NCBI GenBank assembly: GCA_947489705.1
Contig: CANLEQ010000011.1
Location: 1-64,000 of the forward strand
DNA length: 64,000 bases
Source: an uncultured Paracoccaceae bacterium
GTDB lineage: Bacteria > Pseudomonadota > Alphaproteobacteria > Rhodobacterales > Rhodobacteraceae
Reading direction: 5' to 3'
The notes under the pieces were generated by a model, which saw nothing but the letters and a program-made list of their open reading frames with translations, was not told the DNA's origin and searched no databases. Positions 16,401 to 36,102 of this stretch are shown here, piece by piece; positions within the stretch are counted from its first letter, which is position 1, and every line of letters begins with the position of its first letter. The translations under genes and the position numbers were made by a program.

Positions 16401-16588
16401 GACGGTTTCGCCGCGCGGTACTCGGCGCCTTCTTTGCTGGAGGTCAGGACGCAGTCGGGTTGCGACGTGAAGGAGACGAAGATCAGATGCGCGTTGGCCG
16501 CGACGAAGACGACGAGCACGGACAGGGCCACGGCAGCCCCGAAAAGTCGCGGGCGCGTCCAGAAAGTCGGTCGGGATGCGATGGTCAT
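16394..16588 (-). CDS. small single-TM protein in cbb3 operon
   Basis: ATGA overlap with ccoP stop; 'VVFVAANAHLIFVSFTSQPDC'. Confidence 0.6.
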   Translation of the reverse strand: MTIASRPTFWTRPRLFGAAVALSVLVVFVAANAHLIFVSFTSQPDCVLTSSKEGAEYRAAKPSC

Positions 16589-17457: not shown

Positions 17458-17663
17458 GGCTCATCCTCCGGGTCGGACCCGTCGTCGCCCCGGGCGGGCC
17501 CGTCCTCGTCGTCCAGGATGCTCTTGGCGGCCTTGTCGAAGCGGTTTCCCAGCGACGGCCAGAACGCATAGGCCGTGATGCCGACCGACAGGGCGATCAG
17601 ATAGAACAGGCCGAAGGATTTCGAGAACCCGACGAACCATTCATGGGGGATGTCCATGCTCAT
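17448..17663 (-). CDS. ccoQ: cbb3-type cytochrome oxidase CcoQ subunit
   Basis: small single-TM protein between ccoO and ccoP. Confidence 0.85.
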   Translation of the reverse strand: MSMDIPHEWFVGFSKSFGLFYLIALSVGITAYAFWPSLGNRFDKAAKSILDDEDGPARGDDGSDPEDEPCR

Positions 17664-18445
17664 TCCTCCGGCAGGATTTGGGTCTGTTCGGGCAGGTCGG
17701 TGAGCTGCCCGAGGATCTGCAGATAGGCCACCAGCGCGTCCATCTCGGTCAGCCGCCCGGGGCGGTCGTCGAAGTTGCGCACCGCCGTCTCGTCGCCGTA
17801 TCGCTCGAACACGCCGTCCGATCGCTCGGTGTCGGGCATGGCCTGGCCAAGCGCATCGCTATCGGCGTTGGCGATCATCTCGTCGGTGTAGGGCACGCCC
17901 ACCGCGCGCAGGGCCGCGAGGCGATCCGGCAGGCTGTCGGTGTCGAGCCCCGCCTCCAGCAGGAAGGCGTATTGCGGCATCACCGATTCCGGCACCAGGT
18001 CGCGCGGGTTCACCAGGTGCCGGACGTGCCAGTCGTCGGAATATTTCTCGCCCAGCCGCGCCAGGTCCGGACCGGTCCGCTTCGAGCCCCAGAGCATCGG
18101 ATGGTCGTATTGGGACTCCACGGCCAACGAATAGGGCCCGTAGCGCTCGACCTCGTCGCGTAGGGTGCGGATCATCTGGGAGTGGCAGGCATAGCAGCCC
18201 TCGCGGATGTAGATGTCGCGCCCGGCCTGCTCCAGCGGCGTGTAGAGGCGCATGTCGGGCGCGGCCTCGACGGTGTCGTCGATGGTGAAAAGCGGCGCGA
18301 TCTCGATGAAACCGCCCACACCCGCCGCGATGATGATCCCCACGGTCAGGCCCATCGAGTGCCGCTCAAGCCGGTAATGCGTCTTGGCGTGAGCCTCGAA
18401 AAAGGCCGCGAAGGGTTTCAGCAGAGTTCGGATAAACTTCATCAT
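17660..18445 (-). CDS. ccoO: cbb3-type cytochrome c oxidase subunit II
   Basis: 'GRDIYIREGCYACHSQMIRTLRDEVERYGPYSLAVESQYDHPMLWGSKRTGPDLARLG'. Confidence 0.97.
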   Translation of the reverse strand: MMKFIRTLLKPFAAFFEAHAKTHYRLERHSMGLTVGIIIAAGVGGFIEIAPLFTIDDTVEAAPDMRLYTPLEQAGRDIYIREGCYACHSQMIRTLRDEVERYGPYSLAVESQYDHPMLWGSKRTGPDLARLGEKYSDDWHVRHLVNPRDLVPESVMPQYAFLLEAGLDTDSLPDRLAALRAVGVPYTDEMIANADSDALGQAMPDTERSDGVFERYGDETAVRNFDDRPGRLTEMDALVAYLQILGQLTDLPEQTQILPEE

Positions 18446-18449
18446 CGGA

Positions 18450-20102
18450 TCACTCCGCGGCCGGCAGGGCCGGCTCCCTGGATTCAGAGGAGGTCGGATA
18501 GTCGCGCTCGGGTGTCTCGGACGGCATCCGCCGGATCGTCATCACGACGTTCCAGGCCCCGATGCAGGCTCCGATGAGGAACAGCAGTCCGCCGAAGGTG
18601 CGCGCGACATAATAGGGATGCATCGCGACGAGTGTGTCGGTGAAGGAATAGGCGAGCGTCCCGCTCTCGGTATAGGTTCGCCACATCAGCCCCTGGGTGA
18701 TGCCGCTGTTCCACATTGCGAAGACGTAGATGACGGTCCCGGCCAGAGCCAACCAGAAGTGCCATTCGACCGCCTTCCACGAATAGATCGTCTCGCGCCG
18801 CCAGAGCACTGGCGCCAGCGCATAAATCGACCCGAACGAGATCAGCGCGACCCATCCCATCGCGCCGGCATGCACGTGCCCCACCGTCCAGTCGGTATAG
18901 TGCGACAGGCCGTTGACGGGGCGGATCGCCATGAACGAGCCCTCGAAGGTCGAGAGGCCGTAGAACACGGCCGCCACCATCATGAAGCGTAGCGTGGCGT
19001 CGTCGCGGACCTTGTGCCAGGCGCCGTTGAGCGTCATCAGCGCGTTGCCCGCCGACGCCCAGGAGGGTACCAGCAGCATAACCGAGAAGGTCATTCCCAG
19101 CGTCTGCACCCAATGCGGCAGCGCCGTGTAATGCAGGTGGTGGGAGCCCGCCCAGATGTAGAAGAAGGTGATCCCCCAGAAGCTCAGGATAGAGAGGCGG
19201 TAGGAATAGATCGGCCGTTCGGCGCGCTTGGGCAGGAAGTAGTAGAGCATCCCGAGGAAGCCGGAGGTCAGGAAGAACGCCACCGCGTTGTGCCCGTACC
19301 ACCACTGGGTCATCGCGTCCTGCACCCCGGCGAAGGCCGAATAGCTCTTGGCGCCGGTCAGGCTCGCGGGCACGGCGAGGTTGTTGACGATGTGCAGCAC
19401 CGCCACGACCAGGATGAAGGCCAGGTAGTACCAGTTGGCGACGTAGATATGCGGCTCGTTGCGGCGCGCGAGCGTACGGATGTACAGGACGAAGTAGACG
19501 ACCCAGACGACGACCAGCCAGAGATCGGCATACCATTCCGGCTCGGCGTATTCCTTGGACTGGGTGACCCCCATGAGATAGCCGCTGGACGCGACGATGC
19601 AGAAGAGGTTGAAACCGAGAAGCACGAACCACGGCGTAACCTGATCAGGCATTCGGGCGCGGCACGTGCGCTGCATGATGTGAAACGACGTGGCGATCAG
19701 GGCGTTGCCGCCGAACCCGAAGATCACACCGGAGGTATGGACCGGGCGAATGCGGCCGAAGCTGGACCAGGCCGCGTCGAACCTGAGGTCTGGCCAGGCC
19801 AGCTGCGAAGCGACCCAGACGCCCATGCCCATGCCGACAACAGCCCAGAACAGCGCGATGAGAATCCCGACCTTGGTGGGGTCGTCGTAGTAGGACGCAG
19901 TGCGGTCTTGGGTCGGTTCCGGATCCTCGTAGGCGCTGCCGACGACGAAGAACAGCGCGCCGCAGAAAGCCAGTACGATCCAGCCATGCGCGCCCATCGG
20001 GTCTCCCCGTCCGGCCGCGGCCATCACGAGGCCGATGAATGCCCCGGTGCCTGCGATCACCATCGCGTTGGCCCGTTCGGCCCGGGTGAGATTCGACATC
20101 AT
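18450..20102 (-). CDS. ccoN: cbb3-type cytochrome c oxidase subunit I
   Basis: haem-copper oxidase signature 'QWWYGHNAVAFFLTSGFLGMLYYFLPK', 'SHHLHYTALPHWVQ'. Confidence 0.97.
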   Translation of the reverse strand: MMSNLTRAERANAMVIAGTGAFIGLVMAAAGRGDPMGAHGWIVLAFCGALFFVVGSAYEDPEPTQDRTASYYDDPTKVGILIALFWAVVGMGMGVWVASQLAWPDLRFDAAWSSFGRIRPVHTSGVIFGFGGNALIATSFHIMQRTCRARMPDQVTPWFVLLGFNLFCIVASSGYLMGVTQSKEYAEPEWYADLWLVVVWVVYFVLYIRTLARRNEPHIYVANWYYLAFILVVAVLHIVNNLAVPASLTGAKSYSAFAGVQDAMTQWWYGHNAVAFFLTSGFLGMLYYFLPKRAERPIYSYRLSILSFWGITFFYIWAGSHHLHYTALPHWVQTLGMTFSVMLLVPSWASAGNALMTLNGAWHKVRDDATLRFMMVAAVFYGLSTFEGSFMAIRPVNGLSHYTDWTVGHVHAGAMGWVALISFGSIYALAPVLWRRETIYSWKAVEWHFWLALAGTVIYVFAMWNSGITQGLMWRTYTESGTLAYSFTDTLVAMHPYYVARTFGGLLFLIGACIGAWNVVMTIRRMPSETPERDYPTSSESREPALPAAE

Positions 20103-20299
20103 GGCGTTTTCTCCTTGGTCGTCCCGGAATGCCCAGGCGGGTAGGCTGCGAGGGGCTTGTCGTCCTCGTCGAAGAGGATGCGTTCGGCATCGCCCGAGAG
20201 ATCCTCGTACTGGCCGCTGTGCAGGCTCCAGAAAAAGGCGCCGAGCCCGACCGCGCCCATGACCAGGGTCACCGGGATGAGAAGCGTGAGAATCGTCAT
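20099..20299 (-). CDS. ccoS: cbb3-type oxidase assembly protein CcoS
   Basis: 'GAFFWSLHSGQYEDLSGDAERILFDED'. Confidence 0.93.
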   Translation of the reverse strand: MTILTLLIPVTLVMGAVGLGAFFWSLHSGQYEDLSGDAERILFDEDDKPLAAYPPGHSGTTKEKTP

Positions 20300-22566
20300 G
20301 CCGGAATAGCCACCGGCCCGCGTTCCACGCTCTGCAATGGCGCGGCCGCGCGTTTGCCGTTCAGCCGAAGCGAATTGCCGATGACGAGGATCGATGACGC
20401 GGACATCGCCAGAGCGGCGATCAGAGGTGTGACAAGCCCGGCGACGGCCAACGGTATCGCGATGCAGTTATAGGCGATAGCCAGCCCGAAGTTCTGACGG
20501 ACCACACGTGCGGTTGCGCGTGCAACGTCTTGCGCCGTGGCCACCGCGTCCAGCCCATCGCGCAGGAACACGAAATCAGCGGCGGTCCGGCCGGCATCGG
20601 CCGCGGTGGACGGTGCCATCGACACGTGCGCCGCCGCCAGAGCAGCGGTATCGTTCAGCCCGTCGCCCACCATCAGCGCGCGGTGCCCCCGGTCGCGAAG
20701 ATCTTCGAGAACGCCCACCTTCCGCGCCGGGGTCATGCCGTGATGCGCCTCGGCGATCCCAAGCGTCTCTGCAACCTGCGCCACCCGGGCTGCGTCGTCG
20801 CCCGACAGCATCGTGACCGGGATACCGGACGACTGCATGTCCGAAATGGTGTCGACCGCGCCGGGGCGCAGGGTCTCGGACAGATCGAACGATAAAGCGG
20901 GGGCGCCTTCGAAGGCGAAGGCGGGGCCGGTAGCCGCCTGTGGATCCGCTGCGATCTCGGCCACCCAGCGGGCGCGGCCGAGCCGTGCGCGACGACCGTG
21001 GACGCGGCCCTCGACCCCGAAACCCGGCACTTCAACCGCATCCGCCACCTCGCATGCCACCTCGGGCAGATGTGCCGCGATGGCCTGCGCGGCCGGATGA
21101 CGCGACTGCATCGCCAGCGCCTTCGACGCTTCCCGTTGTTCGGCTTCGCCCTCGAAGCATGAGGTGACCATTGGCGTCCCTGTGGTCAGCGTTCCGGTCT
21201 TGTCGAAGACGGCGCGGTCGATCTGGGCCAGACGCTCCAGTGCGCTGCCGTCTTTCATCAGGATGCCGCTCCGCATCAGCCGCCCGGCGGCGACGACCTG
21301 GGCCACCGGCACCGCAAGCCCGAGCGCGCAGGGACAGGTGATGATCAGCACGCTGATCGCGACGAAGGCCGAGACCTGCCAATCCCCCGTAACCAGAAGC
21401 CAGCCCGCGAAGGTCGCCACCGCCAGAAGGTGCACGACCGGGGCGTAGAGCCGCGCCGCCCGGTCTGCGATTCGCACATAGGTGCTGCGGCTCGTTTCAG
21501 CCGCGCTCAGCATCCGCATCATTTCGGCCAGGAAGGATTCGGCGACCGGGCGCAATACCTCGACCTCGATTCCGCCGGTGAGGTTCAGCGTTCCGGCCTC
21601 CAGTTCTGTCCCGGGGCTTGCAGCCACCGGCATCGCCTCGCCGGTGACGAGCGAGCGGTCGAGATCGGTGTCGCCATGCAGGATCCGCACGTCGACCGGC
21701 ACCCTTTCGCCAGCGTCGATGTGCAGGATCATGCCCTTCGCGACGGCGTGGAGTGCTATCCATTCGAGCGATCCGTCAGGCCCCCGCGCCATCGCGCCCT
21801 TCGGCGACAGCCGCGCGAGACCGGTCACCGCACTCCGCGCCCTGTCGCGCATGAGCTGATCGAGATACCGACCTGTCAACAGGAAGAAGAGCAGCGTCAC
21901 GGCGGCGTCGAAGAAGACGTGATCGCCGCCCTGCAACAGCTCCGAGAGGCTCAGCGCCAGCGCCAAGAGAACTGCCAGCGCGATCGGCACGTCCATGTTC
22001 AGCCGGCCACCCCTGAGCACGACGAGGGCAGAGCGGAAGAACGGCTGCCCGGCATAGGCCACCACCGGCACGGCGATCAGCGCCGAGATCAGGTGGAATG
22101 TATCGCGCGTGGTCGCCTCCGCCCCCGACCAGACGGCGACCGACAGGAGCATCACGTTCATCGCGCCGAAGCCCGCAACGGCGATGCACCTCAGAAGATC
22201 CGGACCGTCCTGCTGTGCCGATGCCGGCTCGGTGTCGGAGGGATCGAGCGGCCGCGCGGTGTACCCGAGGGCGGCCAGCGCTTCATAGCCCGGCGACGGG
22301 TCGGTGTTGGCGTCCGTCAACGTCACGCGGACCTGCCGCAGCGTCAGGTTGGCCCGTGCGGCAACGACGCCGGGACAATCGATGAGCGCACGTTCGATCC
22401 GGGCGACGCAGGCGCCGCAGGAGATATTCGGGACCGAAATCAGGCAGACTCCATGACCATTGGCGGCAGGTCGCACACTCGCGCTTCGCTCGGCGCGCGT
22501 CACCGGGCCGGACGGCGCCGGTCGTACCTTGCGGTCGTGCTTTTCCGAGATCACGCGCATTGGCAC
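20296..22566 (-). CDS. ccoI: P1B-type copper-translocating ATPase CcoI/FixI
   Basis: HMA 'CGACVARIE', 'TCPCALGLAVP', 'DKTGTLTTG', 'GDGLNDTAALAAA'. Confidence 0.93.
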   Translation of the reverse strand: MPMRVISEKHDRKVRPAPSGPVTRAERSASVRPAANGHGVCLISVPNISCGACVARIERALIDCPGVVAARANLTLRQVRVTLTDANTDPSPGYEALAALGYTARPLDPSDTEPASAQQDGPDLLRCIAVAGFGAMNVMLLSVAVWSGAEATTRDTFHLISALIAVPVVAYAGQPFFRSALVVLRGGRLNMDVPIALAVLLALALSLSELLQGGDHVFFDAAVTLLFFLLTGRYLDQLMRDRARSAVTGLARLSPKGAMARGPDGSLEWIALHAVAKGMILHIDAGERVPVDVRILHGDTDLDRSLVTGEAMPVAASPGTELEAGTLNLTGGIEVEVLRPVAESFLAEMMRMLSAAETSRSTYVRIADRAARLYAPVVHLLAVATFAGWLLVTGDWQVSAFVAISVLIITCPCALGLAVPVAQVVAAGRLMRSGILMKDGSALERLAQIDRAVFDKTGTLTTGTPMVTSCFEGEAEQREASKALAMQSRHPAAQAIAAHLPEVACEVADAVEVPGFGVEGRVHGRRARLGRARWVAEIAADPQAATGPAFAFEGAPALSFDLSETLRPGAVDTISDMQSSGIPVTMLSGDDAARVAQVAETLGIAEAHHGMTPARKVGVLEDLRDRGHRALMVGDGLNDTAALAAAHVSMAPSTAADAGRTAADFVFLRDGLDAVATAQDVARATARVVRQNFGLAIAYNCIAIPLAVAGLVTPLIAALAMSASSILVIGNSLRLNGKRAAAPLQSVERGPVAIPA

Positions 22567-22689
22567 TCTACCCTTTCCACCAACCCCGATCCGGTGTTCG
22601 TCGTGCGGGAACGAGCAGACAGCGCGTTACCTGAATTTGCCAATTCCGCCGTACATGCGGGTCACTGGCATGGAACGCGGATTGCCTTT

Positions 22690-22703
22690 TTGATCGAAAT
22701 CAA
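22690..22703. promoter_or_regulatory. FNR/CRP-type box between ccoI operon and hemerythrin-like gene
   Basis: TTGAT-CGAA-ATCAA perfect inverted half-sites. Confidence 0.8.
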
Positions 22704-22768
22704 AGATTCCAACGGTTTTTCATGCCAGCTCTCTTTCCATGCATCTGAGACGACAGGACCGTTAATTC

Positions 22769-23230
22769 ATGCATCCGTCAGGGGCTGACCTCCCGGATAG
22801 TTTAGGTGTCGCAAAACGGTTCGACGCCTGTATCGATCGGCAGATTGAACTCAGCCTGGCGCTTGAGGCGCTTGCCGACAGCCTCCCGTCCCGCGTTGAC
22901 ACCTATGCCGCGATGATCCTCATGGATCGGCTGACGACCACCCTGAAACGCTGCCACCGGCTGGAGGAGACGATGGTGTTCCCCGTCCTGAGAATTTCAT
23001 GCGTCGATGTCGGCCCGATCCTGGAGCGGCTGCGCATCGAACATGTCGAGGATGAGGATCACGCCGCGGACCTTCGGGATGCCCTGGAGGCCTTCGCGAC
23101 GCACCATCGGACCGCGGCGGCCGACGAGCTCGGCTACATGCTGCGTGGTCTATTCACGGCGCTGCGGCGGCACGCCGCCTTCGACAAGGACCATGTCCTG
23201 CCGCTCTACCGCCGCAGCTGCGGTCCCTGA
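22769..23230 (+). CDS. hemerythrin (HHE)-like domain protein
   Basis: conserved His/Glu spacing 'CHRLEETMVFPVL…LRIEHVEDEDHAADL…ALRRHAAFDKDHVLPLYRR'. Confidence 0.65.
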   Translation: MHPSGADLPDSLGVAKRFDACIDRQIELSLALEALADSLPSRVDTYAAMILMDRLTTTLKRCHRLEETMVFPVLRISCVDVGPILERLRIEHVEDEDHAADLRDALEAFATHHRTAAADELGYMLRGLFTALRRHAAFDKDHVLPLYRRSCGP

Positions 23231-23234
23231 GCCG

Positions 23235-23951
23235 TCAGAGACCCGACGCGGCCATCAGCGCGCCATGGTCGGTGATCGTGACATGGCGGTTCGTCTCGAT
23301 GGCGACGATGCCGGCCTTTCGCAGACGGGTGAAGTGGCGGCTGACCGTCTCGATCGTCAGCCCAAGGAAATCGGCGATGTCGGCCCGCTTCAGGGGAATG
23401 TCGAATTCCTGCGAATATCCCTCCTTCAGTGGATCGACGTGCCGGCTGAGAAGAAGAAGGAACGACGCCACCTTCTCGGCGGCGGACTTCTGGCCCAGCG
23501 TCATCATCCAGTCGCGCGCATCGTCAAGCTCGCGCAGGGCCTGCCGGTGCAGCCGATGTTCGAGCGCCGGAGAGCACCGCACGATGTCCTCAAGCGCGGA
23601 TCTCGGGAACGTGCACAGGCGCACGGTGCTGGCCGCCTCGGCGCCGACCTCGCTGCTTTCCGAGAACGGGCGGCCGAGAAAGTCAGGTGCGAATTGCAGT
23701 CCGACGATCTGCTGGCGCCCGTCGGGCATGAGCTTGGTCAGTTTCACCACGCCGCTGAGGATATTGGCGTAGCTTTCGGCTGGGATTCCGGCTGCGATCA
23801 GTTCCGTTCCGGGCTCCACCTCGCGCCGTCCCGTTCTGCGGCCGAGCCGAACGAGCTGACCTGGATCCAGTGCGCCGCATATCCCCTTGTGGCGCGCCTC
23901 GCATGCGCGGCAGAGCACGGGGATGTCCGAGTTGTGAATGTCCAGTCGCAT
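23235..23951 (-). CDS. FNR-type (FnrL-like) oxygen-responsive regulator
   Basis: N-terminal 'CRACEARHKGIC' cysteines plus 'RLCTFPR'; HTH 'KRADIADFLGLTIETVSRHFTRLRKAGIV'. Confidence 0.9.
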   Translation of the reverse strand: MRLDIHNSDIPVLCRACEARHKGICGALDPGQLVRLGRRTGRREVEPGTELIAAGIPAESYANILSGVVKLTKLMPDGRQQIVGLQFAPDFLGRPFSESSEVGAEAASTVRLCTFPRSALEDIVRCSPALEHRLHRQALRELDDARDWMMTLGQKSAAEKVASFLLLLSRHVDPLKEGYSQEFDIPLKRADIADFLGLTIETVSRHFTRLRKAGIVAIETNRHVTITDHGALMAASGL

Positions 23952-24013
23952 AGTCTCGGCCCTCTCGCCGATCGGTCTTGCGGTTGCCGGGCCCCTCCGG
24001 TCCCAAAGCCCCT

Positions 24014-24502
24014 CTACATGGCGTTGGACTGCCAATCCTGATCGAGAGGCCCTGGTGTCGGCTCGCACTCCGGTTCACGCTTCGGAAAACCGAGCAGAAA
24101 CAGCCCGAGCGCCTTCGCTACTTCTATGGCCGCATAGAGAAGATGATGAAAGGAGGCTTCCGGCATCTCGCCGGACATGATCGTCTCGACGCGCGCCGTC
24201 AGCGCCGGAAGCAGCCAGACCACTTGCACCGCGAGACCGATGATTACCGCCGCCGTCACGATCCGGCGCCAGCGCGACGGCCGCGATACCCAAACCGTCA
24301 CGGCGAGAGCGACGGCGAGTATCCATTCGACCCGCGAGAAAGCCCCGAAGGTCAGCTGTCCCACGTCCAGCGCCGTCGGCAAGTCAAGCCCTGCCGCCTG
24401 GAACTTGACGGGTGTCGCGATGAAGGAGACGCCGATCAACATGCCGAGCCAGATCGCGGCGATCATCGGGCGCAATCTGGCGACGTCAACCAATGGCGGC
24501 AT
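24014..24502 (-). CDS. membrane protein of unknown function
   Basis: multi-TM ORF in operon with fdxA and trHb genes. Confidence 0.55.
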   Translation of the reverse strand: MPPLVDVARLRPMIAAIWLGMLIGVSFIATPVKFQAAGLDLPTALDVGQLTFGAFSRVEWILAVALAVTVWVSRPSRWRRIVTAAVIIGLAVQVVWLLPALTARVETIMSGEMPEASFHHLLYAAIEVAKALGLFLLGFPKREPECEPTPGPLDQDWQSNAM

Positions 24503-24511
24503 GGCGGTCTC

Positions 24512-24847
24512 CTATCCAGGGTTCGAACTGAAATGGTCCGCGAACTTGTTGGCTACGCCGTCCCACTCGGCAGCGTCGTCCGGCGGTGGCTTCGCGGTAA
24601 CGATGTTGGGCCAAATCGCGGAATGTTCCGCATTGAGCACCAGCCATCCGGCCAGATCCGGAACCGTATCGGTGTCGGCAAAGATCGCTTCGGCCGGGCA
24701 TTCGGGCACGCAGACGCCGCAATCGATGCACTCGTCCGGGTGGATCACCAGCATGTTCTCGCCCTCGTAGAAACAATCGACGGGGCAGACCTCGACGCAG
24801 TCGGTGTATTTGCAGCGGATGCAGTTGTCGGTGACGACATAGGTCAT
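24512..24847 (-). CDS. fdxA: ferredoxin (FdxA-type 7Fe)
   Basis: '[47 protein letters not shown]'. Confidence 0.95.
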
Positions 24848-25278
24848 CCGGTCACCATCGGCGCATGCAGGTCATCGAGAGCGGGAAAGACGGCCATGCG
24901 CAGGCTGCGGGCGATCTTTTCGGCCCGCTCCACGAACAGGGCGGCCACGTCGGGCTCGCAGGTCTCGCGCGCGGTCTCGGCAAAGAGGCCCAGCCAGATC
25001 GCGAAGTGCTCGGGCCGGAGGTCTGACAACCCCTGATGCGCGGGAACCGGCCTGCCGTGATAGCGCCCGGTCATGCATGTGACCGATGACCAGAAGGCGA
25101 ACATCTTCTGCAGATGCGGCTCCCAGTCATCGCCGATCCTGGCGGCGACGATCGGGCCGAGTTGCGGATCCCGGCGCGCGCGCCCGTAGAACCGCCGCAC
25201 GAGACGTTCGATCAGGACGTCGTTGATTGACGGGTTCAGGGGCTGTCGCCGCGGGTTCGAAGGCTCGGACATCATCAC
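24844..25278 (-). CDS. truncated haemoglobin (group III-like)
   Basis: '[59 protein letters not shown]'. Confidence 0.88.
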
Positions 25279-25440: not shown

Positions 25441-25893
25441 TCAGTTGGTCATCGCGCCAGCCTGCTCGAGCAGGTCGTCGAACCGCTTCGCGGCTCGGCC
25501 GCGCTGCCGTACATCGCGGACCACGTCAAAGTTGCGTTCGAAGTCGCCGACGAGGATCAGGCCGACCATACCCAGTCCGTAATGCGGCTCGCAGATATAG
25601 CCATACGTGCCCTCGACCGCGAATGTGAAGGTCACCGGCTCGCTGATCGCGCCGTCCCATCCCGCAGCTCCGGCCGGGATCATCGCCTCCATGCTGGTCG
25701 AGTTGTGGCCGCGGTCGGTCGGCACAAAGGTCACCGTGTCGCCCGGTGCGATTTTCAGCAGCGCCGGCTCGAACACCATCGTCTTCTCTCCCCCGGAGCT
25801 CACGTTCAGCATCCGGACCTCGAAGTCGTCGGCTGACGCGGCGAAAGGAGCGAGTGCCAGCGTCAGGCCGAGGATCGTGTATCTGATGGTCAT
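25441..25893 (-). CDS. pseudoazurin
   Basis: type-1 copper motif 'YGYICEPHYGLGMVGLI', 'DRGHNSTSMEAMIP'. Confidence 0.9.
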   Translation of the reverse strand: MTIRYTILGLTLALAPFAASADDFEVRMLNVSSGGEKTMVFEPALLKIAPGDTVTFVPTDRGHNSTSMEAMIPAGAAGWDGAISEPVTFTFAVEGTYGYICEPHYGLGMVGLILVGDFERNFDVVRDVRQRGRAAKRFDDLLEQAGAMTN

Positions 25894-25904
25894 GTGATTT
25901 CTCC

Positions 25905-26981
25905 TCAGTAGGATCCCGACCCCTCGCCGATCTCTTCGCCGCCGCTGTCGAAGAGGCCCTCCTGGACCGGCTCTCCGTCGACGAGGACGTGGCCGACGAG
26001 ACCTTTCTCCAGCCGCGAGAGCGCGTGGTCGACCAGGTTGAACGTCCCCGGCACCTCGAACTCGAAATCGAGCATGGTGGCGCCGCCGGGTGGCACGGTG
26101 ACCGTCTGCACGTCGCGGATGGGCTCGGACACGGCGCTGCCGAACACGTAGGCTTCGTCGATGATCTCGCCGATCAGATGGATCGACGAGGTCAGGTTCG
26201 GCCCTCCGACGCCGAAATAGATGCGCGCCGTCTCGCCGGTCAGGGCCACCATCGGGAATCCGCCCTCAGTCAGCGCGCCGACGGCACCGTTGAACACGGC
26301 GTAGGTCGGGCGCTCGTCGATCAGCCGCTCCCAGCTTTCGGTGACCTGACCGCGGGTACCGAACGGCTCCGTGGTATAGATTTCACCCTGCATCACGTAC
26401 CATTCATGATCGACCGGCGGCAGACCGCCTTCGGGTTCGACCAGGATCAGGCCGTACATGCCGTTGGCGATGTGCAGCGCCACGGGTGGCGTGGCGCAAT
26501 GGTAGACATACAGTCCCGGCTTCAACGCCTTGAAGGAGAACGTGTTGGTCTCGCCCGGTGCGGCAAAGGACACGTCGCCGCCTCCACCCGGTCCGGTCGC
26601 CGCATGGAAATCGATGTTGTGGACCATCTGGCTGTCGATCGGGTTGCGCAGCGTCACGTTTACCGTGTCGCCGACCCGGGCGCGGATCATCGGACCCGGC
26701 ACCGTCCCGTTGAACGTCCAATAGCGGAAGGTCGTGCCCTGATCGAGATGCGCTATCCGCTCCTCGGTCACCAACTCGAGCTCGTGCGTCTTGGGCGCCC
26801 GCTCGCCGATCGGCTCGGGCACGTCCGTCGGCGCCCGCACGATCTCGCCGGTGCGCACATCGACTTGACCCATGGCCGGAAGTGCTGTCGTCGCGAATGC
26901 GGCGGCGACGATCGTGGCAACGGACCGCTTTGCAAAGCTCCCCGGAGATTTCATCCTCTTACTCCTTTTCAAGAGGGACAC
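25905..26981 (-). CDS. nirK: copper-containing nitrite reductase
   Basis: 'HNIDFHAATGPGGGGDVSFAAPGE', 'GLYVYHCATPPVALHIANGMYGLILVEPEGGLPPVDHEWYVMQGEIYT'. Confidence 0.96.
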   Translation of the reverse strand: MSLLKRSKRMKSPGSFAKRSVATIVAAAFATTALPAMGQVDVRTGEIVRAPTDVPEPIGERAPKTHELELVTEERIAHLDQGTTFRYWTFNGTVPGPMIRARVGDTVNVTLRNPIDSQMVHNIDFHAATGPGGGGDVSFAAPGETNTFSFKALKPGLYVYHCATPPVALHIANGMYGLILVEPEGGLPPVDHEWYVMQGEIYTTEPFGTRGQVTESWERLIDERPTYAVFNGAVGALTEGGFPMVALTGETARIYFGVGGPNLTSSIHLIGEIIDEAYVFGSAVSEPIRDVQTVTVPPGGATMLDFEFEVPGTFNLVDHALSRLEKGLVGHVLVDGEPVQEGLFDSGGEEIGEGSGSY

Positions 26982-26990
26982 GGTGCGGGG

Positions 26991-27443
26991 CTATTGCGTG
27001 GCGCCTGCGCCCCCGCTCACCTGTTCGAACAGCTCCGCCATGCGCTGTGCCGCGCGACCGGGATGCTTGACCGTCTGTGCATCCGCGAGGTTCGGTGTCT
27101 CGTCGCCCACCTGGATCAGACCCACCATCCCGAGCGGATAATGCGGCAGGCACTTGTAGCCGTAGAGGCCGGGAACATCGAAGGTGACGGTGATCTCTTC
27201 GTTAATGCGGCCCTTCCAGGCTTCGGCGCCCTCGGGGATCATTCCCAGGACGGCTTCGCTGTTATGGGTGCGGTCCGTCGCGACGAAGGTGACCGTGTCG
27301 CCCGGCTCGATCGCGAGAAAGGCGGGCTCGAACACCATCGCCTGGCCGTCCGGACCCTTGTTGAGCATCTGCACTTCGTAGTCGGTTGCCAACGCCGGCG
27401 TGGCCATGACACTGGCGATCAGCATGAGGGTCGTCGTTCTCAT
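26991..27443 (-). CDS. pseudoazurin (second paralogue)
   Basis: 'DRTHNSEAVLGMIPEGAEAWKG…GLYGYKCLPHYPLGMVGLIQVGD'. Confidence 0.9.
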   Translation of the reverse strand: MRTTTLMLIASVMATPALATDYEVQMLNKGPDGQAMVFEPAFLAIEPGDTVTFVATDRTHNSEAVLGMIPEGAEAWKGRINEEITVTFDVPGLYGYKCLPHYPLGMVGLIQVGDETPNLADAQTVKHPGRAAQRMAELFEQVSGGAGATQ

Positions 27444-27535: not shown

Positions 27536-27549
27536 TTGATTTATATCAA
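27536..27549. promoter_or_regulatory. FNR/NNR-type box in pseudoazurin-nirK / nsrR intergenic region
   Basis: TTGAT-TTAT-ATCAA. Confidence 0.8.
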
Positions 27550-27594: not shown

Positions 27595-27611
27595 AAGTAT
27601 ATTTAATGCAT
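27595..27611. promoter_or_regulatory. candidate NsrR operator upstream of nsrR-like gene 1
   Basis: AAGTAT-ATTTA-ATGCAT, 1 mismatch to ATGYAT-N5-ATRCAT. Confidence 0.6.
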
Positions 27612-27635
27612 CAAGTAGGTGGAGGAGAGTCTCGG

Positions 27636-28073
27636 GTGCAGCTCAGCAGCTTTTCGGACTATGCCCTGCGCTTGCTGATGAAGCTGGCGCTCGACCCCGA
27701 ACGTTGGAAGACGATCCGCGAAATCGCCGACGCCTACGGCATATCCCGCAACCACATGATGAAGATCGCGCAGGAACTGGGGCAGTTCGGCTACATCGAG
27801 ACGCTCCGCGGGCGCGGTGGCGGACTGCGTCTGAAACGGCCCGCGCATGAGATCAACATCGGCGAGGTCGTGCGTCGGACCGAAGGCAATCTCGCGCTTG
27901 TCGAATGCTTCGATCCGGCGACCAACCAGTGCGTCATCACTGATGCATGTCGGTTGAAAGGGGTCTTGGGCGAAGCACTCGAGGCCTTCTTTCGCGTGCT
28001 CGACGGATACACGCTGTCGGACCTCCTGCAAGAGCGTGGGGCGCTTGTTGCGATCTTGGAGAAAGCGGACTGA
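27636..28073 (+). CDS. Rrf2 family NsrR-like regulator (paralogue 1)
   Basis: 'QLSSFSDYALRLLMKLAL…CFDPATNQCVITDACRLKGVL' three-Cys cluster; GTG start behind GGAGGAGAG. Confidence 0.88.
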   Translation: MQLSSFSDYALRLLMKLALDPERWKTIREIADAYGISRNHMMKIAQELGQFGYIETLRGRGGGLRLKRPAHEINIGEVVRRTEGNLALVECFDPATNQCVITDACRLKGVLGEALEAFFRVLDGYTLSDLLQERGALVAILEKAD

Positions 28074-28089
28074 ACGACAAGGAACGATC

Positions 28090-28347
28090 ATGACGATGAA
28101 ACTCGAGCTTGCGGAGGGTCGGATCACCGTTCCGGCGGAGCTTCTTGCGACGTCCTTCGGGATCGAGCCTGCCGAGGTGTCGGAGATGATGAGATCCGGC
28201 GACATCACCAGCCGGTCCGAGACCGGCGAGGGCGAGCATGCCGGCCGGTTTCGCGTGACCTTCTGGTACGGTGCCCGACAGGTGCGGCTCACTTGCGCCG
28301 AGGATGGAACGGTTCTGACCCGCGTCGCCAGCGTGGCGCGGCGGTGA
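28090..28347 (+). CDS. small protein (DUF6522-like) upstream of nnrS
   Basis: ORF between nsrR and nnrS; stop overlaps nnrS start. Confidence 0.6.
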   Translation: MTMKLELAEGRITVPAELLATSFGIEPAEVSEMMRSGDITSRSETGEGEHAGRFRVTFWYGARQVRLTCAEDGTVLTRVASVARR

Positions 28348-29549
28348 TGGCGCAGACGTCTGCCGAACGAATGCGGGCATGGACCGGCCCCGCGATCCTG
28401 TCCTTCGGCTTCCGGCCGTTCTTTTTGCTGGGGTCGCTCTGGGCGGCTCTGGCCATGATGCTGTGGATGCTGATGCTGACCGGTGGGGTGGTGCTGCCGA
28501 TCGCGTGGGATCCGGTGACCTGGCATGCCCATGCCTTCCTGATCGGCTATCTGGGCGCGATCGTCGCGGGATTCCTGCTGACCGCGGTGCCGAACTGGAC
28601 CGGACGCCTGCCGGTGCTGGGATGGCGATTGGGCGCACTTGCCCTGCTCTGGGTCTTGGAGCGGATCGCCGTACTGGCCTCGGCCATGTTGCCCTGGCCT
28701 GTGGTGATGGCGGCCGATCTTGCGTTCCTAGTCGCCTTGGCCGTTCTGCTTGGAAGAGAGATCGTCGCGGGGCACAACTGGCAAAACCTTATCGTGCTGG
28801 CGCTGCTGGTTCTGCTGATCCTCGGCGGCAGCCTGTCCCATTGGCAGGCCGCGCGGGACGGGACCGCGGCGCATGGTTCGGGCCTGCGGCTGCTGCTGGG
28901 AACAGCGATCATGATGATCGGCGTCATCGGCGGGCGGATTGTGCCGTCGTTCACGCGCAACTGGCTGGTGCGCCAGGGATCGCAAGCGCGCCCCGCGCCG
29001 CCGATGCAAGACTACGACAAGGCAACGCTGCTGGTCATGCTGGCCGCCATCTTGGTCTGGGTTGTCTGGCCGGACACGATCCTGACGGCGCTGCTGTTGC
29101 TCGGGGCGGGCGGGATGCAGGCGCTTCGGCTGACCCGCTGGCGCGGCGACCGCACGGCGGCCGAACCGCTGGTCTGGGTGCTGCATCTAGCCTATTCCTT
29201 CGTGCCGCTGGGCGCACTGGCCTTGGGTGCGTCGATCCTGTGGCCCGGCATGCTGAACCCCGCCGCCGCGCAGCATCTCTGGATGGCCGGCGCCATCGGG
29301 CTGATGACGATGGCCGTGATGACCCGCGCAACGCTGGGGCACACCGGGCGCGACCTGCATGCGGGAGCGGGAACGACTGCGCTCTATCTCGCGCTCGTCG
29401 GAGCAGTCCTGTTGCGGATAGTGGCAAGTATAGGGGCTGCACAGGTGACGACGCTCTATGCCGTGTCGGGTTTCTTATGGAGCGCGGCCTTTCTAGGGTT
29501 CGCTGGGCTCTACGGTCGATTGCTGCTGTATCCAAAGCCCGCAGGCTGA
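28347..29549 (+). CDS. nnrS: NnrS family membrane protein
   Basis: 'GFRPFFLLGSLWAALAMMLW…DPVTWHAHAFLIGYLGAIVAGFLLTAVPNWTG'. Confidence 0.93.
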   Translation: MAQTSAERMRAWTGPAILSFGFRPFFLLGSLWAALAMMLWMLMLTGGVVLPIAWDPVTWHAHAFLIGYLGAIVAGFLLTAVPNWTGRLPVLGWRLGALALLWVLERIAVLASAMLPWPVVMAADLAFLVALAVLLGREIVAGHNWQNLIVLALLVLLILGGSLSHWQAARDGTAAHGSGLRLLLGTAIMMIGVIGGRIVPSFTRNWLVRQGSQARPAPPMQDYDKATLLVMLAAILVWVVWPDTILTALLLLGAGGMQALRLTRWRGDRTAAEPLVWVLHLAYSFVPLGALALGASILWPGMLNPAAAQHLWMAGAIGLMTMAVMTRATLGHTGRDLHAGAGTTALYLALVGAVLLRIVASIGAAQVTTLYAVSGFLWSAAFLGFAGLYGRLLLYPKPAG

Positions 29550-29644: not shown

Positions 29645-30010
29645 CTATATGGGACGGCGCGCTTGTCGCTCGAGATAGACCTTCAGCGCCGCGGCATTGT
29701 GATGCGTCTCGTCCTTCGCGCCATAGATCAGCGTCAGGTCCCCTTCCGCAGCAAGATCGAGAAGCCGCGACACTGCGTCCTCCTTGTCGGCCATTTCGTC
29801 GAAATAGGCCTCCCTGAACGCTTCGCATTTCTGCGGATCATGGCCGAACCAGCGCCGCAGTTCGTCGCTGGGCGCCACATCCTTCATCCAATCCGTCAGG
29901 CGCAGGCGGTCCTTCGCCACTCCGCGCGGCCAGACGCGGTCCACCAAGACGCGCGCGCCGTCTGAGGCGCGCGCGGCGCGATAGGCGCGCTTGATGCGGA
30001 CGTCGCTCAT
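29645..30010 (-). CDS. DUF488 family protein (short)
   Basis: 'IKRAYRAARASDGARVLVDRVWPRGVAKDRLRLTDWMKDVAPSDELRRWFGHDP'. Confidence 0.88.
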   Translation of the reverse strand: MSDVRIKRAYRAARASDGARVLVDRVWPRGVAKDRLRLTDWMKDVAPSDELRRWFGHDPQKCEAFREAYFDEMADKEDAVSRLLDLAAEGDLTLIYGAKDETHHNAAALKVYLERQARRPI

Positions 30011-30693
30011 CGCGGCCGCCGCCAAGTCTCATCACCGAGCACGACCACGTCCATCGGTACGTCGTACGGCTGCGGATAGATTGTCGCGATGCGCGCCGAG
30101 GGATGCCCGATGCCGATCACCAGATGATCCTGCTCCATCGCCGCCAGCGTTTGGTCGTAGAAACCGCCGCCATGCCCCAGTCGGAAGCCGGCCGCATCGA
30201 TCCCGACCACGGGCGAGATTACCACGTTCGGCACTTGCACCTCCCTCTCGGCAGGAACGGGGATGTTCCAGACGCCGCGTTCCATCCGGCAGCGGGGGCG
30301 CCACTCGCGAAAGACGAGCGGCGCGTCCTTGGCGACGACCACGGGCAGAACCACACGCGCGCCTTCGTTCGTCAGCCGTGTCATCCAGGGCCGCAGGTCG
30401 AGCTCGCCCCGGAACGGCCAATAGGTGCTCACCACCGGCGTCTCGATTTCCCTTATCAGGACGTCAAGCTTGGCCATCACGCGCTCGGCTGTCCTGACCC
30501 TCTCGTCGGCCGACACGGCAAGACGCATGCCGATCAAACGCGCTCGCTCGGCCTTGCGCCACCGCGCGACGTCACGCGCCGTCTGCGGATCGACAACCTC
30601 GGCGCCGTCGGCCCCTTCGGAAAGTTCATGTGAAAAGCAAGGCGGCGATGCATAGGATCGGCTCATCATCTCTCCTCTTTCAACTAAGGACAA
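30007..30693 (-). CDS. 5-formyltetrahydrofolate cyclo-ligase family protein
   Basis: 'VISPVVGIDAAGFRLGHGGGFYDQTLA', 'YWPFRGELDLRPWM'. Confidence 0.9.
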   Translation of the reverse strand: MSLVERGEMMSRSYASPPCFSHELSEGADGAEVVDPQTARDVARWRKAERARLIGMRLAVSADERVRTAERVMAKLDVLIREIETPVVSTYWPFRGELDLRPWMTRLTNEGARVVLPVVVAKDAPLVFREWRPRCRMERGVWNIPVPAEREVQVPNVVISPVVGIDAAGFRLGHGGGFYDQTLAAMEQDHLVIGIGHPSARIATIYPQPYDVPMDVVVLGDETWRRPR

Positions 30694-30769
30694 CTTGTTG
30701 AAGATTGTTGGAACGCAACGTGTATCGGGGTCGCGACTGGTGATCGGGAATTGCGGATGACAGCCTTCT

Positions 30770-31369
30770 TCAGGCGGCTGGATAGATCACCTTCCTTTCA
30801 TCGGTGATGCGTGCGCCGTCGTTCAAGCGGGCAGCGTATATCCGACCGTTACCCATCAGATGATCGACCGCGTGACTGTTTGCCAGCAGATGGTCGGTGA
30901 TGATACGCCGATGACACCGCCACCAGACGGCCTCCGAGCACATCATGGCCAGCCGTGTTTCGCGGCCCATCTCGACGAGATCGTCGAATGCCTCTGCGAA
31001 CTCGTCACCCAGAGCATAATCGGCGTAGTTCTGGAAGCTTTTTATCCGCCACATGGCGTTCAGTGTCTCGGCGACCTGCGGCTGTTTGCGACGACGGCCA
31101 CCCAAGGCCGGGATATGGCAATAATCGATCCGCATGCGAGTCAAATCCCCGGGGAGCCTATCGATGTTGAAGGCTGGATTGCTCCGCGAACGCGGGAAAG
31201 ACCGGACATCTACGACAAGGCCGATATCGGCGTGACGAAGGATGTCCAGAAAGTCCGAAAGTGATCGATTGGAATGGCCAAAGCTCGCGTAGCGCGCACT
31301 CTCGGATAGAGCCGCGTTGGTATGGTCTTTCGTCACGAGGGCGATCGGGGCGCTGCGGGGTGGCTCCAA
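30770..31369 (-). CDS. DUF488 domain protein (long)
   Basis: 'SFGHSNRSLSDFLDILRHADIGLVVDVRSFPRSRSNPAFN…AMMCSEAVWWRCHRRIIT'. Confidence 0.88.
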   Translation of the reverse strand: MEPPRSAPIALVTKDHTNAALSESARYASFGHSNRSLSDFLDILRHADIGLVVDVRSFPRSRSNPAFNIDRLPGDLTRMRIDYCHIPALGGRRRKQPQVAETLNAMWRIKSFQNYADYALGDEFAEAFDDLVEMGRETRLAMMCSEAVWWRCHRRIITDHLLANSHAVDHLMGNGRIYAARLNDGARITDERKVIYPAA

Positions 31370-31433: not shown

Positions 31434-31889
31434 TTAATGGTTCATCCCGCGCAATCTCTCCCCGTCTTCCTGCGGCGCGGGAAACAGCGCCATGAAATCT
31501 GCCTCGCCATGGGGCAGGTCCGCTAAAGTGTAGCGATCGAGTACCGCAAGGAAGGCATTCGACGCTTCGGCCATGACAGAACTCAGTCCGCAGCCTGGCG
31601 CGACGATGCAGGTGTCGCAATCGACAACCTGAAAGCTGTCTTCGGTCATGCGCACCACCTCACCGACATTGATATCGGCAGCAGGTCGGGCCAGCGTAAT
31701 GCCGCCGTTGCGCCCGCGCGCTGCCCTGACAAGACCCGAACGCCCCAGATCATGCACGACCTTCGTCAGGTGATTGTGCGAGATCCGGTAGTTGCCCGAA
31801 ATTTCCGAAATGGCGCAATGCCGCTCCGGGCGGGCTGAAAGGTACATCAGGACGCGCAAGGCGTAGTCAGTGTATCGTGTCAAACGCAT
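31434..31889 (-). CDS. nsrR: Rrf2 family NsrR-like regulator (paralogue 2)
   Basis: 'MRLTRYTDYALRVLMYLSARPE…GNYRISHNHLTKVVHDLGRSGLV…CDTCIVAPGCGL'. Confidence 0.92.
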   Translation of the reverse strand: MRLTRYTDYALRVLMYLSARPERHCAISEISGNYRISHNHLTKVVHDLGRSGLVRAARGRNGGITLARPAADINVGEVVRMTEDSFQVVDCDTCIVAPGCGLSSVMAEASNAFLAVLDRYTLADLPHGEADFMALFPAPQEDGERLRGMNH

Positions 31890-31918: not shown

Positions 31919-31935
31919 ATGTATTTCACTTGCAT
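31919..31935. promoter_or_regulatory. candidate NsrR operator 1 in nsrR/hmp intergenic region
   Basis: ATGTAT-TTCAC-TTGCAT, 1 mismatch to ATGYAT-N5-ATRCAT; within duplicated composite ATACATGTAT-N7-GCATGTATT (31915-31940). Confidence 0.7.
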
Positions 31936-31971
31936 GTATTTTTCAAGCGACTACATAACCCCGCACGATAC

Positions 31972-31988
31972 ATGTATAGTGGATGCAT
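31972..31988. promoter_or_regulatory. candidate NsrR operator 2 in nsrR/hmp intergenic region
   Basis: ATGTAT-AGTGG-ATGCAT, perfect half-sites; within second composite ATACATGTAT-N7-GCATGTATT (31968-31993). Confidence 0.75.
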
Positions 31989-32055
31989 GTATTGCAGGCT
32001 CGCGGCGACTTACGTCCGTGGTGCAGGACAGATTAGCAGGCGAAGGAACATCAGG

Positions 32056-33255
32056 ATGGCCACGACACTCAGGCCGAACACAATCGAAACAGTAAAGGCG
32101 ACCGTTCCGGCACTGGAGGCACACGGGCTGGAAATCACGCGGCGCATGTATGACCGGCTTTTTGAAGATGACGAAATCCGGGCTCTATTCAATCAATCCC
32201 ATCACGGCGAGACCGGATCGCAACCAAAGGCCCTGGCTGGCGCGGTGCTCGCCTATGCGCGCAACATCGAGACCCTGGGCGCGCTCGGCCCGGCAGTCGA
32301 GCGGATCGCCCAGAAGCATGTAGGGCTTCAGATCCTGCCAGAACATTATCCCTACGTCGGCGAAGCTCTCTTGGGGGCGATCGGAGACGTGTTGGGCGAC
32401 GCGGCCACGGATGAGGTCATGACCGCCTGGGAGGAGGCGTACTGGGCGCTTGCCGATATCCTCATGGCCAGGGAGAAAACACTCTACGACCGCAGCGCCG
32501 CAGCTCCCGGCGGTTGGACAGGATGGCGCGAGTTCGTTGTCGCGGATCGGAAAACGGAAAGCGACGTCATCACCTCGTTCCTCCTGCGCCCCGCAGATGA
32601 CAAGCCGGTCGTGCCCCATCGGCCCGGCCAGTATCTGACTTTTCTGATCGAACGGCCTGGAGAGGTTCCCCAACGACGCAACTACAGTATTTCGGCGGCG
32701 CCAAACGGGGAAAGCTATCGGATCTCGGTCAAGCGGGAGCCGGGCGGCGTCGCCTCGGGATGGCTGCACGACAGCGCCGTGCCCGGAACGATCCTGAGAG
32801 TCGCGCCACCCGCGGGCGAGTTCGTCCTCCCCGACCGACCGTCGCGCCCGGTCGTCCTGCTAAGCGGCGGTGTCGGTCTGACCCCCATGGTGGCCATGTT
32901 CGAGACGCTCGCAACCCGACCCTCGGCGACGGCCATCCACTACATCCACGGCGCGCTCGATGGTTCGGCTCACGCCATGAGTGGCCACGTCCGCGAGCTG
33001 GCCGAACGAACCGGCGCGAATGTGAACGTGTTTTATGAGTGCCCCAAGCCTCAGGATCAAGGCTACGACGCCGCCGGCCGAATACCGCTCGACTGGCTGA
33101 TTCAGAACACGCCGATAGGTGAGGCCGATTACTTCATCTGCGGACCAGCGGCGTTTCTGAGGACGTTCGTGACCGGCTTGGAGCACGCCGGCGTCGCTCG
33201 GGATCGAATCCATTACGAATACTTCGGACCGGCGGACGATCTGATGGCTGCCTGA
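32056..33255 (+). CDS. hmp: flavohaemoprotein / nitric oxide dioxygenase
   Basis: globin 'FNQSHHGETGSQPKALAGAVLAYARNIE', FAD 'RRNYSISAAPNGESYRISVKRE', NAD 'LLSGGVGLTPMVAMFE', 'YFICGPAAFL'. Confidence 0.95.
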   Translation: MATTLRPNTIETVKATVPALEAHGLEITRRMYDRLFEDDEIRALFNQSHHGETGSQPKALAGAVLAYARNIETLGALGPAVERIAQKHVGLQILPEHYPYVGEALLGAIGDVLGDAATDEVMTAWEEAYWALADILMAREKTLYDRSAAAPGGWTGWREFVVADRKTESDVITSFLLRPADDKPVVPHRPGQYLTFLIERPGEVPQRRNYSISAAPNGESYRISVKREPGGVASGWLHDSAVPGTILRVAPPAGEFVLPDRPSRPVVLLSGGVGLTPMVAMFETLATRPSATAIHYIHGALDGSAHAMSGHVRELAERTGANVNVFYECPKPQDQGYDAAGRIPLDWLIQNTPIGEADYFICGPAAFLRTFVTGLEHAGVARDRIHYEYFGPADDLMAA

Positions 33256-34875: not shown

Positions 34876-35517
34876 GTGCAGACCGTTCTCTACGCCCGGG
34901 TTTCAACGGCCGACCAGACCTCCGCCCATCAAGAGACGCAGGCGCGCGCGGCAGGTTTCGAGGTCGACCGTGTGATCGTCGACGAAGGCGTTAGCGGCGT
35001 CTCGGTCGCCTTCGCCGAGCGACCGCAAGCACGGCGTCTCTTCGACGTTCTAAGGCGGGGCGATGTGCTCGTTGTCCGATGGGTGGACCGCCTCGGGCGG
35101 GATTACGATGACGTCACCCATACGATCCGGACCTTCATGGAGGCGGGGGTGGTGATCCGGACCCTGATCAACGATTTCACCTTCGACGGGGCGACCCGGG
35201 ACCCGGTACAGAAAGCGGTGCGCGACAGTCTGATCGCGTTCATGGCCGCTACGGCGCAGGCCCAGGCCGAAGCCACGCGGATTGCCCAGAAAGCGGGGAT
35301 CGAGCACGCCCGCAGCGGTGCGGGGGCGGGGCGCAAGTATCCGGGCCGCAAACCCTCCTTCGACCGTATCGCCTTCGAGGAGGTTCGAGCTGCCTTGGCG
35401 CAAAGGCGCAGCGTGAGCGTGATCGCCCGCGAGGCCGGACTGTCGCGTCAGGCCGTTCTGCGCATCCGCGACGATCCGGCAAACGCGGAAGCGGCGCTTC
35501 GGAAATGGGGGCTTTGA
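34876..35517 (+). CDS. serine recombinase (Tn3-type resolvase), no cognate transposase seen
   Basis: 'TVLYARVSTADQTSAHQETQARAAGF…VVRWVDRLGRDYDDVTHTIRTFMEAGV'. Confidence 0.93.
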   Translation: MQTVLYARVSTADQTSAHQETQARAAGFEVDRVIVDEGVSGVSVAFAERPQARRLFDVLRRGDVLVVRWVDRLGRDYDDVTHTIRTFMEAGVVIRTLINDFTFDGATRDPVQKAVRDSLIAFMAATAQAQAEATRIAQKAGIEHARSGAGAGRKYPGRKPSFDRIAFEEVRAALAQRRSVSVIAREAGLSRQAVLRIRDDPANAEAALRKWGL

Positions 35518-35649: not shown

Positions 35650-36102
35650 TCACTGGCGAGGGGGTTCCCGCGTTGAGATCTCCGATGGCTCTTCTGACCA
35701 AAAGCGCCCCTTCCATCCGGGCACACCATCGAGACCGTCGAAGGCCGTATCCTTCGAGATCAGTGGGCAAACCATCTCGAGAGCCGTTGCCGCGATCATC
35801 CGGTCAAACGGATCGCGGTGGCTCCACGCCATTCCGCCCGAGAGCATTGCCATTTCGGCCGTGTAGGGAGCGACAATACCACCTTGCGCTCGCAGGAGGG
35901 CCGGGAGCCGCGGTACGATGACGCTGACTTCCGGCCACTTTCCTGACCGATGCTTCTGGGTGATTTCGTGGAAGCTGCAGGGCGCCACATACACCGCCTG
36001 CGCGTCTGCGATCAGGGACCTCGCGACAGGATTGAGGTCCGGCATGTCGAGCAGGCTCCAGACCCAGGTATGCGTGTCCAGCAGGACGGCCGTCATTCCC
36101 AC
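35650..36102 (-). CDS. PIN-domain toxin (VapC-like)
   Basis: 'AVLLDTHTWVWSLLDMPDLNPVARSLIADAQAVYVAPCSFHEITQKHRSGKWP…RDPFDRMIAATA'. Confidence 0.9.
   Translation of the reverse strand: MGMTAVLLDTHTWVWSLLDMPDLNPVARSLIADAQAVYVAPCSFHEITQKHRSGKWPEVSVIVPRLPALLRAQGGIVAPYTAEMAMLSGGMAWSHRDPFDRMIAATALEMVCPLISKDTAFDGLDGVPGWKGRFWSEEPSEISTREPPRQ

Follow-up and report, generated by a model that had tools for sequence, protein, structure and literature searches.

Truncated genotypes carrying nirK are well known (PMC4770552, PMC10999283). Genome surveys commonly find nirK without nor, in cells that have to survive the NO that they produce. The closest described arrangement occurs in SAR11 genomes devoid of NOR, where an accessory region combines nirK, a pseudoazurin gene and a cbb3 oxidase with a Crp/Fnr regulator; the authors raise the possibility that NO is reduced by the cbb3 enzyme (Morris et al. 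2026, PMC12816887). On the side of mobility, umuC-family genes are hotspots for recombinase-driven islands (PMC4542609), and three tyrosine recombinases together with GinD are the hallmark of the GInt elements (PMC5385486). Nitrite-induced CcoN isoforms also exist in Pseudomonas (PMC5697931).

The locus analysed here lies in a stretch of 64,000 nucleotides, called the window throughout. By gene content it resembles the SAR11 region: NirK, Paz, a cbb3 oxidase and a Crp/Fnr regulator are encoded together, and no NOR was found in the genome. Unlike in SAR11, NirK is of class II and its gene is flanked by a paz gene on either side, genes for NsrR-like regulators, NnrS, globin, Hmp and hemerythrin are present, and the whole module occupies an island inserted in umuC whose ends are defined. 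The cbb3 oxidase of the window is of the CcoN2 clade described below. In our reading, the Paz1-NirK-Paz2 operon is probably the nitrite-reducing part of a mobile island for microoxic respiration, inserted in umuC, in an alphaproteobacterium of marine type. The operon and the associated boxes are:

26991-27443, minus strand: Paz1 pseudoazurin, first gene of the operon (TIGR02375, 161.5 bits; cut-off 109.85)
25905-26981, minus strand: NirK, two-domain class II copper nitrite reductase (TIGR02376, 328.3 bits; cut-off 296.3)
25441-25893, minus strand: Paz2 pseudoazurin, end of the operon (TIGR02375, 131.6 bits; cut-off 109.85)
27536-27549: FNR/NNR-type box TTGATTTATATCAA, exact match, between paz1 and a divergent Rrf2 gene
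22690-22703: second exact FNR-type box TTGATCGAAATCAA

The three genes are co-directional and separated by 9 and 11 bp, a layout from which the operon is predicted, orientation alone not being equivalent to a single transcript. Two exact TTGATNNNNATCAA sites were found in the window, compared to 0.00 expected from shuffled sequences, and the box at 27536-27549 is retained in the sister locus (L044). NNR and FNR boxes are indistinguishable by sequence. Boxes of the strict pattern were found 5′ of only a few related nirK clusters. The coordinates, the TIGR scores and the exact TTGATTTATATCAA match agree with the preliminary description of this DNA, which had proposed a Paz-NirK-Paz operon on the minus strand behind an FNR/NNR box.

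In an alignment of 63 NirK sequences, the window protein keeps all type-1 and type-2 Cu ligands as well as the catalytic Asp and His, and shows the motifs HNIDFH, YHC, ALHIANGM, SSIHLIGE and DHALSR. Its best PDB relatives are 6tfd, 2dv6 and 6the, in each case the core of a Hyphomicrobium-type enzyme, and the core is closest in sequence to NirK of Hyphomicrobium denitrificans (2dv6, 6tfd) and to NirK ‘clade 1e’ (Pold et al. 2024, PMC10999283). The Hyphomicrobium enzyme carries an additional fused N-terminal cupredoxin domain, whereas the window NirK (358 aa) does not and is matched by 6tfd and 2dv6 over the core only; its cupredoxin counterparts are two separate pseudoazurins. By sequence, NirK is Hyphomicrobium-like and has an intact active site.

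Both pseudoazurins carry the HN...C..H....M copper motif and they are 54% identical to each other. In the tree, Paz1 lies among pseudoazurins adjoining class II nirK in Rhizobiales, a grouping that is not resolved, and Paz2 clusters with pseudoazurins of the congeners G596 and G598 (support 96/88), next to which the sequence read showed no nirK. An origin of the two flanking paz genes by tandem duplication was ruled out, since Paz2 joins the G596 and G598 proteins and Paz1 does not. A paz gene beside nirK is ordinary, class I nirK in the host family often having one adjacent; a nirK flanked in addition by a second paz of different derivation was observed only in the window genome and its sister. 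Paz1 probably arrived together with NirK, and Paz2, which resembles the congener pseudoazurins, is probably an addition serving as a second donor. Other arrangements were observed elsewhere. At one locus (L042, G090:C2:60335-63068), a gene for a divergent NirK (45% identical) occurs in tandem with genes for a pseudoazurin and for a second multicopper protein resembling NirK. The mobilizable plasmid pHL2708X3 of Maritalea myrionectae (L210) carries an Rrf2 gene with pseudoazurin-nirK, surrounded by genes for DUF2249 and DUF1858 proteins.

Several genes related to NO or to regulation lie on both sides of the operon:

22769-23230, plus strand: hemerythrin HHE protein (PF01814, 1.5e-9)
23235-24068, minus strand: Crp/Fnr regulator, FnrL-like, with N-terminal cysteines (NF045989 FnrL, 199 bits, below the cut-off of 300)
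24014-24502, minus strand: DUF4149 membrane protein
24512-24847, minus strand: ferredoxin (Fer4 and DUF3470)
24844-25278, minus strand: group III truncated globin (match to 2ig3, E 2.5e-15)
27606-28073, plus strand: NsrR-like Rrf2 regulator (PF02082, 1.9e-36; NsrR model NF008240, 142.8 bits, below the cut-off of 182)
28036-28347, plus strand: DUF6522 protein (PF20132, 9.5e-29)
28293-29549, plus strand: NnrS membrane protein (PF05940, 3e-103)
31434-31889, minus strand: second NsrR-like Rrf2 regulator (NF008240, 128.7 bits, below the cut-off of 182)
31930-33255, plus strand: flavohemoglobin Hmp (NF009805, 515.2 bits; cut-off 432)

The Hmp, truncated globin, NnrS and hemerythrin-like proteins named in the preliminary description were all recovered by their models or structural matches (NF009805, 2ig3, PF05940 and PF01814). 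NsrR is the best-matching model for both Rrf2 proteins, yet both score below its cut-off, so ‘NsrR-like’, as first proposed, is kept and NsrR proper is not reached. The idea of a nitrite-to-NO module bundled with scavenging stood as far as Hmp, globin, NnrS and hemerythrin share the island with nirK, and scavenging of the NO made by NirK would be their putative role. The real start of Hmp is probably an internal ATG giving MATTLRPN. In several genera, the DUF6522 gene recurs near genes for NsrR-like Rrf2, NnrS and CcoN2, and its product is a candidate small NO-related protein. A 5-formyltetrahydrofolate cyclo-ligase-like gene between two genes for DUF488 proteins (29645-31369) is also on the island; the same trio adjoins a second CcoN2 operon in the congener G602 (L140).

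The preliminary description had overlooked both the boundaries of the island and a cbb3 operon at 15519-22566, described below. The features defining the island are:

14438-39876: integrative island of ~25.4 kb within umuC, bounded by 13-bp inverted repeats TTATGTGGAATAG / TTACGTGGAATAG
12390-14435, plus strand: left flank, umuD and the 5′ part of umuC (2,046 bp, 95.9% identical to 47725-49767)
39883-41973, plus strand: right flank, the 3′ part of umuC and downstream sequence (2,093-bp stretch, 93.2% identical to 49770-51861)
34876-35517, plus strand: small serine resolvase (PF00239, 6.5e-24)
35650-36344, minus strand: Phd-like antitoxin and PIN-domain toxin pair (PF02604, PF01850)
36419-38719, minus strand: large tyrosine recombinase, 766 aa (PF00589, 4.6e-10)
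38649-39677, minus strand: tyrosine recombinase, 342 aa, ~200 bp from the umuC junction (PF00589, 4.3e-25)

At its left end (14438) the island reads TTATGTGGAATAG; its right end (39876) is the reverse complement of TTACGTGGAATAG. The end motif has exactly two copies, found nowhere else in the window, compared to 0.02 expected. The interrupted umuC is broken after UmuC ...SSNYTLYG. An intact second umuDC lies at 47725-51861, ~8 kb from the split copy, the two copies being 93-96% identical. A Mu/IS21-type transposase is encoded at 59455-61011, outside the island.

A 15.7 kb part of the island is 99.89% identical in a different congener species (G199/G603, contig CANMTR010000034), whereas the core oxidase loci ctaD, cyoB-like and coxA-like are only 73-81% identical between the window genome and that species. 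A third species, G602, likewise carries part of the island, at the identical umuC codon. In G602 as in G199/G603, this codon marks the junction of the same island end with the 3′ part of a diverged umuC, in the opposite orientation. These comparisons show a recent horizontal transfer of the island between species, with umuC as its preferred target. The mobility proposed in the preliminary description is thus borne out by the inverted repeats, the recombinases, the insertion in umuC beside an intact umuDC, and the 99.9% identity set against 73-81%.

Insertion into a umuC-family gene, at the same codon in three species, is shared with the rulB/umuC integron-like elements (ILEs); the likeness to ILEs and GInts extends to site-specific insertion by tyrosine recombinases, recombinases near the junction and variable cargo. 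In contrast to these elements, the window island has two PF00589 recombinases at its right end rather than three, and it differs in host group and cargo; no gene for the TetR-like/GinD partner was identified at the island.

The congener G602 carries the region corresponding to window 14598-25200 at 85.6% identity, without nirK. In this genome (L138, 2769-7476 and 9401-20000), the window blocks 42551-47267 (94.5%) and 14598-25200 lie <2 kb apart, and a globin gene truncated at its 5′ end is close to an apparent transposase gene, which gives the impression that part of the island was deleted. G602 had suggested that nirK entered a pre-existing cbb3 block, an idea that was withdrawn: synteny ends inside the truncated globin gene near the putative transposase gene, which makes loss as likely as insertion.

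We then considered the rest of the denitrification pathway. The absence of norCB and nosZ from the window, reported in the preliminary description, holds for NorB and NosZ in the rest of the assembly as well; the whole-assembly search that it had called for found neither of them, hence no norCB co-inherited with the island. A COX1-family search of the whole genome returned five proteins, assigned by NCBIfam classes to CtaD, a CyoB-like and a CoxA-like protein and two CcoN, which rules out a NorB hidden among them. The same search detects cNorB-range proteins at ~240-263 bits in other genomes, so this negative result is informative; the NosZ search was likewise positive in other genomes. No Nar, Nap or Nas was found: the only PF00384 proteins of the genome are NuoG and a YdeP-like oxidoreductase, which rules out NapA or NarG among them. 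With norCB and nosZ lacking genome-wide, there is no complete denitrification cluster and, nitrate reductases being missing too, the proposal of nitrite-to-NO conversion rather than complete denitrification is upheld. By annotation, the organism is predicted to be a nitrite-to-NO-only cell (no recognisable Nar/Nap/Nas, NorB or NosZ). It is not alone in this respect: among 24 genomes with this NirK type, a NorB-range match is absent in 13, present in 10 and ambiguous in 1, NorB being assigned by score range outside the window genome.

The assembly is a draft of 156 contigs (completeness 100, contamination 2.4), and a nor cluster could fall in a gap of this genome, which is not closed. The completeness estimate argues against such a gap, as does the sister G199, a different species assembled separately in which NorB is likewise absent; we consider a missed cluster very unlikely.

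As nitrate reductase is missing, nitrite must come from the surroundings. This dependence on external nitrite would also suit a NirK that detoxifies nitrite, or that sends NO as a signal to algae or other neighbours, without respiratory gain. The roseobacter Phaeobacter inhibens does make extracellular NO from nitrite under oxic conditions (PMC10356946). Its plasmid-borne denitrification locus is comparable to ours as another nirK of the roseobacter group on a mobile replicon, but it includes a nor operon, whereas NorB was not found in the window genome. The FNR box, the FnrL-like regulator and the linkage to a high-affinity oxidase argue instead for respiration at low oxygen, and we regard a role restricted to detoxification or signalling as improbable.

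The oxidase in question is the second cbb3 enzyme of the genome:

15519-16400, minus strand: DUF2189/BPSS1780-like membrane protein, a companion of CcoN2
16585-17457, minus strand: CcoP (TIGR00782, 281.7 bits)
17660-18445, minus strand: CcoO (TIGR00781, 299.3 bits)
18450-20102, minus strand: CcoN of the second cbb3 oxidase, CcoN2 (TIGR00780, 635.9 bits)
20296-22566, minus strand: copper P-type ATPase, CcoI/CtpA-like (TIGR01511, 470 bits)

CcoN, CcoO and CcoP all exceed their TIGR cut-offs, as expected for a cbb3-type oxidase. A tree of 42 CcoN places the window protein in a CcoN2 clade (n = 21) that is split from 18 housekeeping CcoN with a support of 100/100. Twenty positions differ almost without exception between the two groups. 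Among the CcoN2 substitutions, P320S lies before the CuB His-His pair, S412A after the heme b3/b histidines and H307S in the segment that precedes the cross-linked Tyr; G275A is a further substitution next to the conserved residues. We found no literature placing CcoN position 307 (approximately His243 of P. stutzeri CcoN, given the alignment offset) in a proton channel. The six histidines, the cross-linked tyrosine (Tyr315, in 21/21) and the conserved glutamate are all retained.

The CcoN2 clade is associated both with this NirK type and with NO-related genes. Among 385 alphaproteobacterial genomes sampled, the NirK type occurred in 12, CcoN2 in 14 and both in 5 (p = 2e-5, or 2e-4 without the window genome, kinship being ignored in both values). 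A gene for Rrf2, truncated globin, NnrS or DUF6522 was found nearby in 11/21 CcoN2 neighbourhoods as compared to 0/20 for CcoN1 (p = 1.6e-4), a figure somewhat biased by the use of queries from the window and by the finding of several CcoN2 loci via NirK. NO-related genes are also present near the NirK-free CcoN2 loci L163, L167, L168 and L176. A DUF2189/BPSS1780-like gene accompanies 18 of the 21 CcoN2 and one of the 20 CcoN1; the literature search returned no paper linking DUF2189 to cbb3. The same oxidase operon is linked to homologous Paz-NirK loci in Tianweitania, Aquamicrobium, Aminobacter, Pararhizobium and a Rhizobiaceae MAG, where the assortment of NnrS, globin and Rrf2 genes varies. 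CcoN2-like operons were also observed on plasmids of Limimaricola variabilis (L209) and Paracoccus (H32, H33), that of L. variabilis having genes for FnrL and Rrf2 in its vicinity and no nirK within the sequence read. With a distinctive second cbb3 among its cargo, the island looks like a microoxic-respiration island, beyond nitrite reduction and scavenging.

Two functions can be envisaged for this oxidase. CcoN2 could be the missing NO reductase, in which case the island would be a complete nitrite-to-N2O module with the second cbb3 in place of NorCB. Such a function would fit the linkage of CcoN2 to NirK and NO-response genes, the lack of a NorB-range protein in 13 of the 24 genomes mentioned above, and the fixed changes P320S, S412A and H307S around the active site. 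NO reductase activity is known for canonical cbb3 (reviewed in PMC8780969), and the same idea was put forward for SAR11 (PMC12816887). Nevertheless, the protein lacks the characteristics of NorB: TIGR00780 (ccoN) is its top model, and the oxidase tyrosine is kept along with the six histidines. CcoN2 also occurs without this NirK (in G274, G382, G410 and others) and coexists with a NorB-range protein in some genomes (G203, G047). We therefore consider replacement of NorCB unlikely. Alternatively, CcoN2 may be an oxygen reductase tolerant to NO or nitrite, NO being released or consumed by Hmp. Its association with NsrR-like regulators, globin and NnrS and its intact oxidase ligands are consistent with such tolerance. 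A role of the P. aeruginosa CcoN3 isoforms in nitrite resistance is reported as well (PMC5697931, which cites Hirai 2016). P. aeruginosa CcoN3 and CcoN4 are comparable as alternative CcoN for nitrite or cyanide conditions (PMC5697931), but they are orphan subunits, whereas CcoN2 comes with a complete ccoNOP, DUF2189 and Cu-ATPase set. A NO- or nitrite-tolerant oxidase is the function that we favour, with about an even chance of being correct, a role as NO reductase appearing less likely.

Taken together, a mechanism can be proposed for the island. Falling oxygen would lead an FNR-type regulator, perhaps the FnrL-like protein of the island itself, to activate the operon. Electrons would pass from the quinol pool and bc1 to pseudoazurin or cytochrome c, then to periplasmic NirK, which would reduce external nitrite to NO. 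The NsrR-like Rrf2 regulators would sense NO, leading to derepression, and Hmp and globin would remove it. Meanwhile the CcoN2-type cbb3 would respire scarce oxygen despite NO or nitrite, and may turn some NO into N2O.

The kind of arrangement is already known, nirK-paz-cbb3 without Nor having been described in SAR11 in 2026. What is new is the umuC island with its defined ends and its recent transfer between species, the bundle of NO-defence genes, a pair of paz genes that differ in origin, and a CcoN2 clade statistically tied to NirK and NO genes. Since the unit is physically defined by its ends, its target and its recent transfer, one may regard the capacity to convert nitrite to NO as something that a mobile island carries. 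The repeated association of this NirK type with NO-response genes and a separate CcoN clade provides a testable candidate for the missing NO-handling step. Extended to a general proposal, a distinct, horizontally spread cbb3 clade (CcoN2, CcoO, CcoP, DUF2189, Cu-ATPase) would act as terminal enzyme for NO, reducing it to N2O in NorB-less nirK bacteria; we consider this unlikely. A CcoN2 that handles NO would alter the genome-based prediction of N2O potential and, if the clade does convert NO to N2O, many denitrifiers now regarded as ‘NO-releasing, truncated’ would make N2O with an oxidase.
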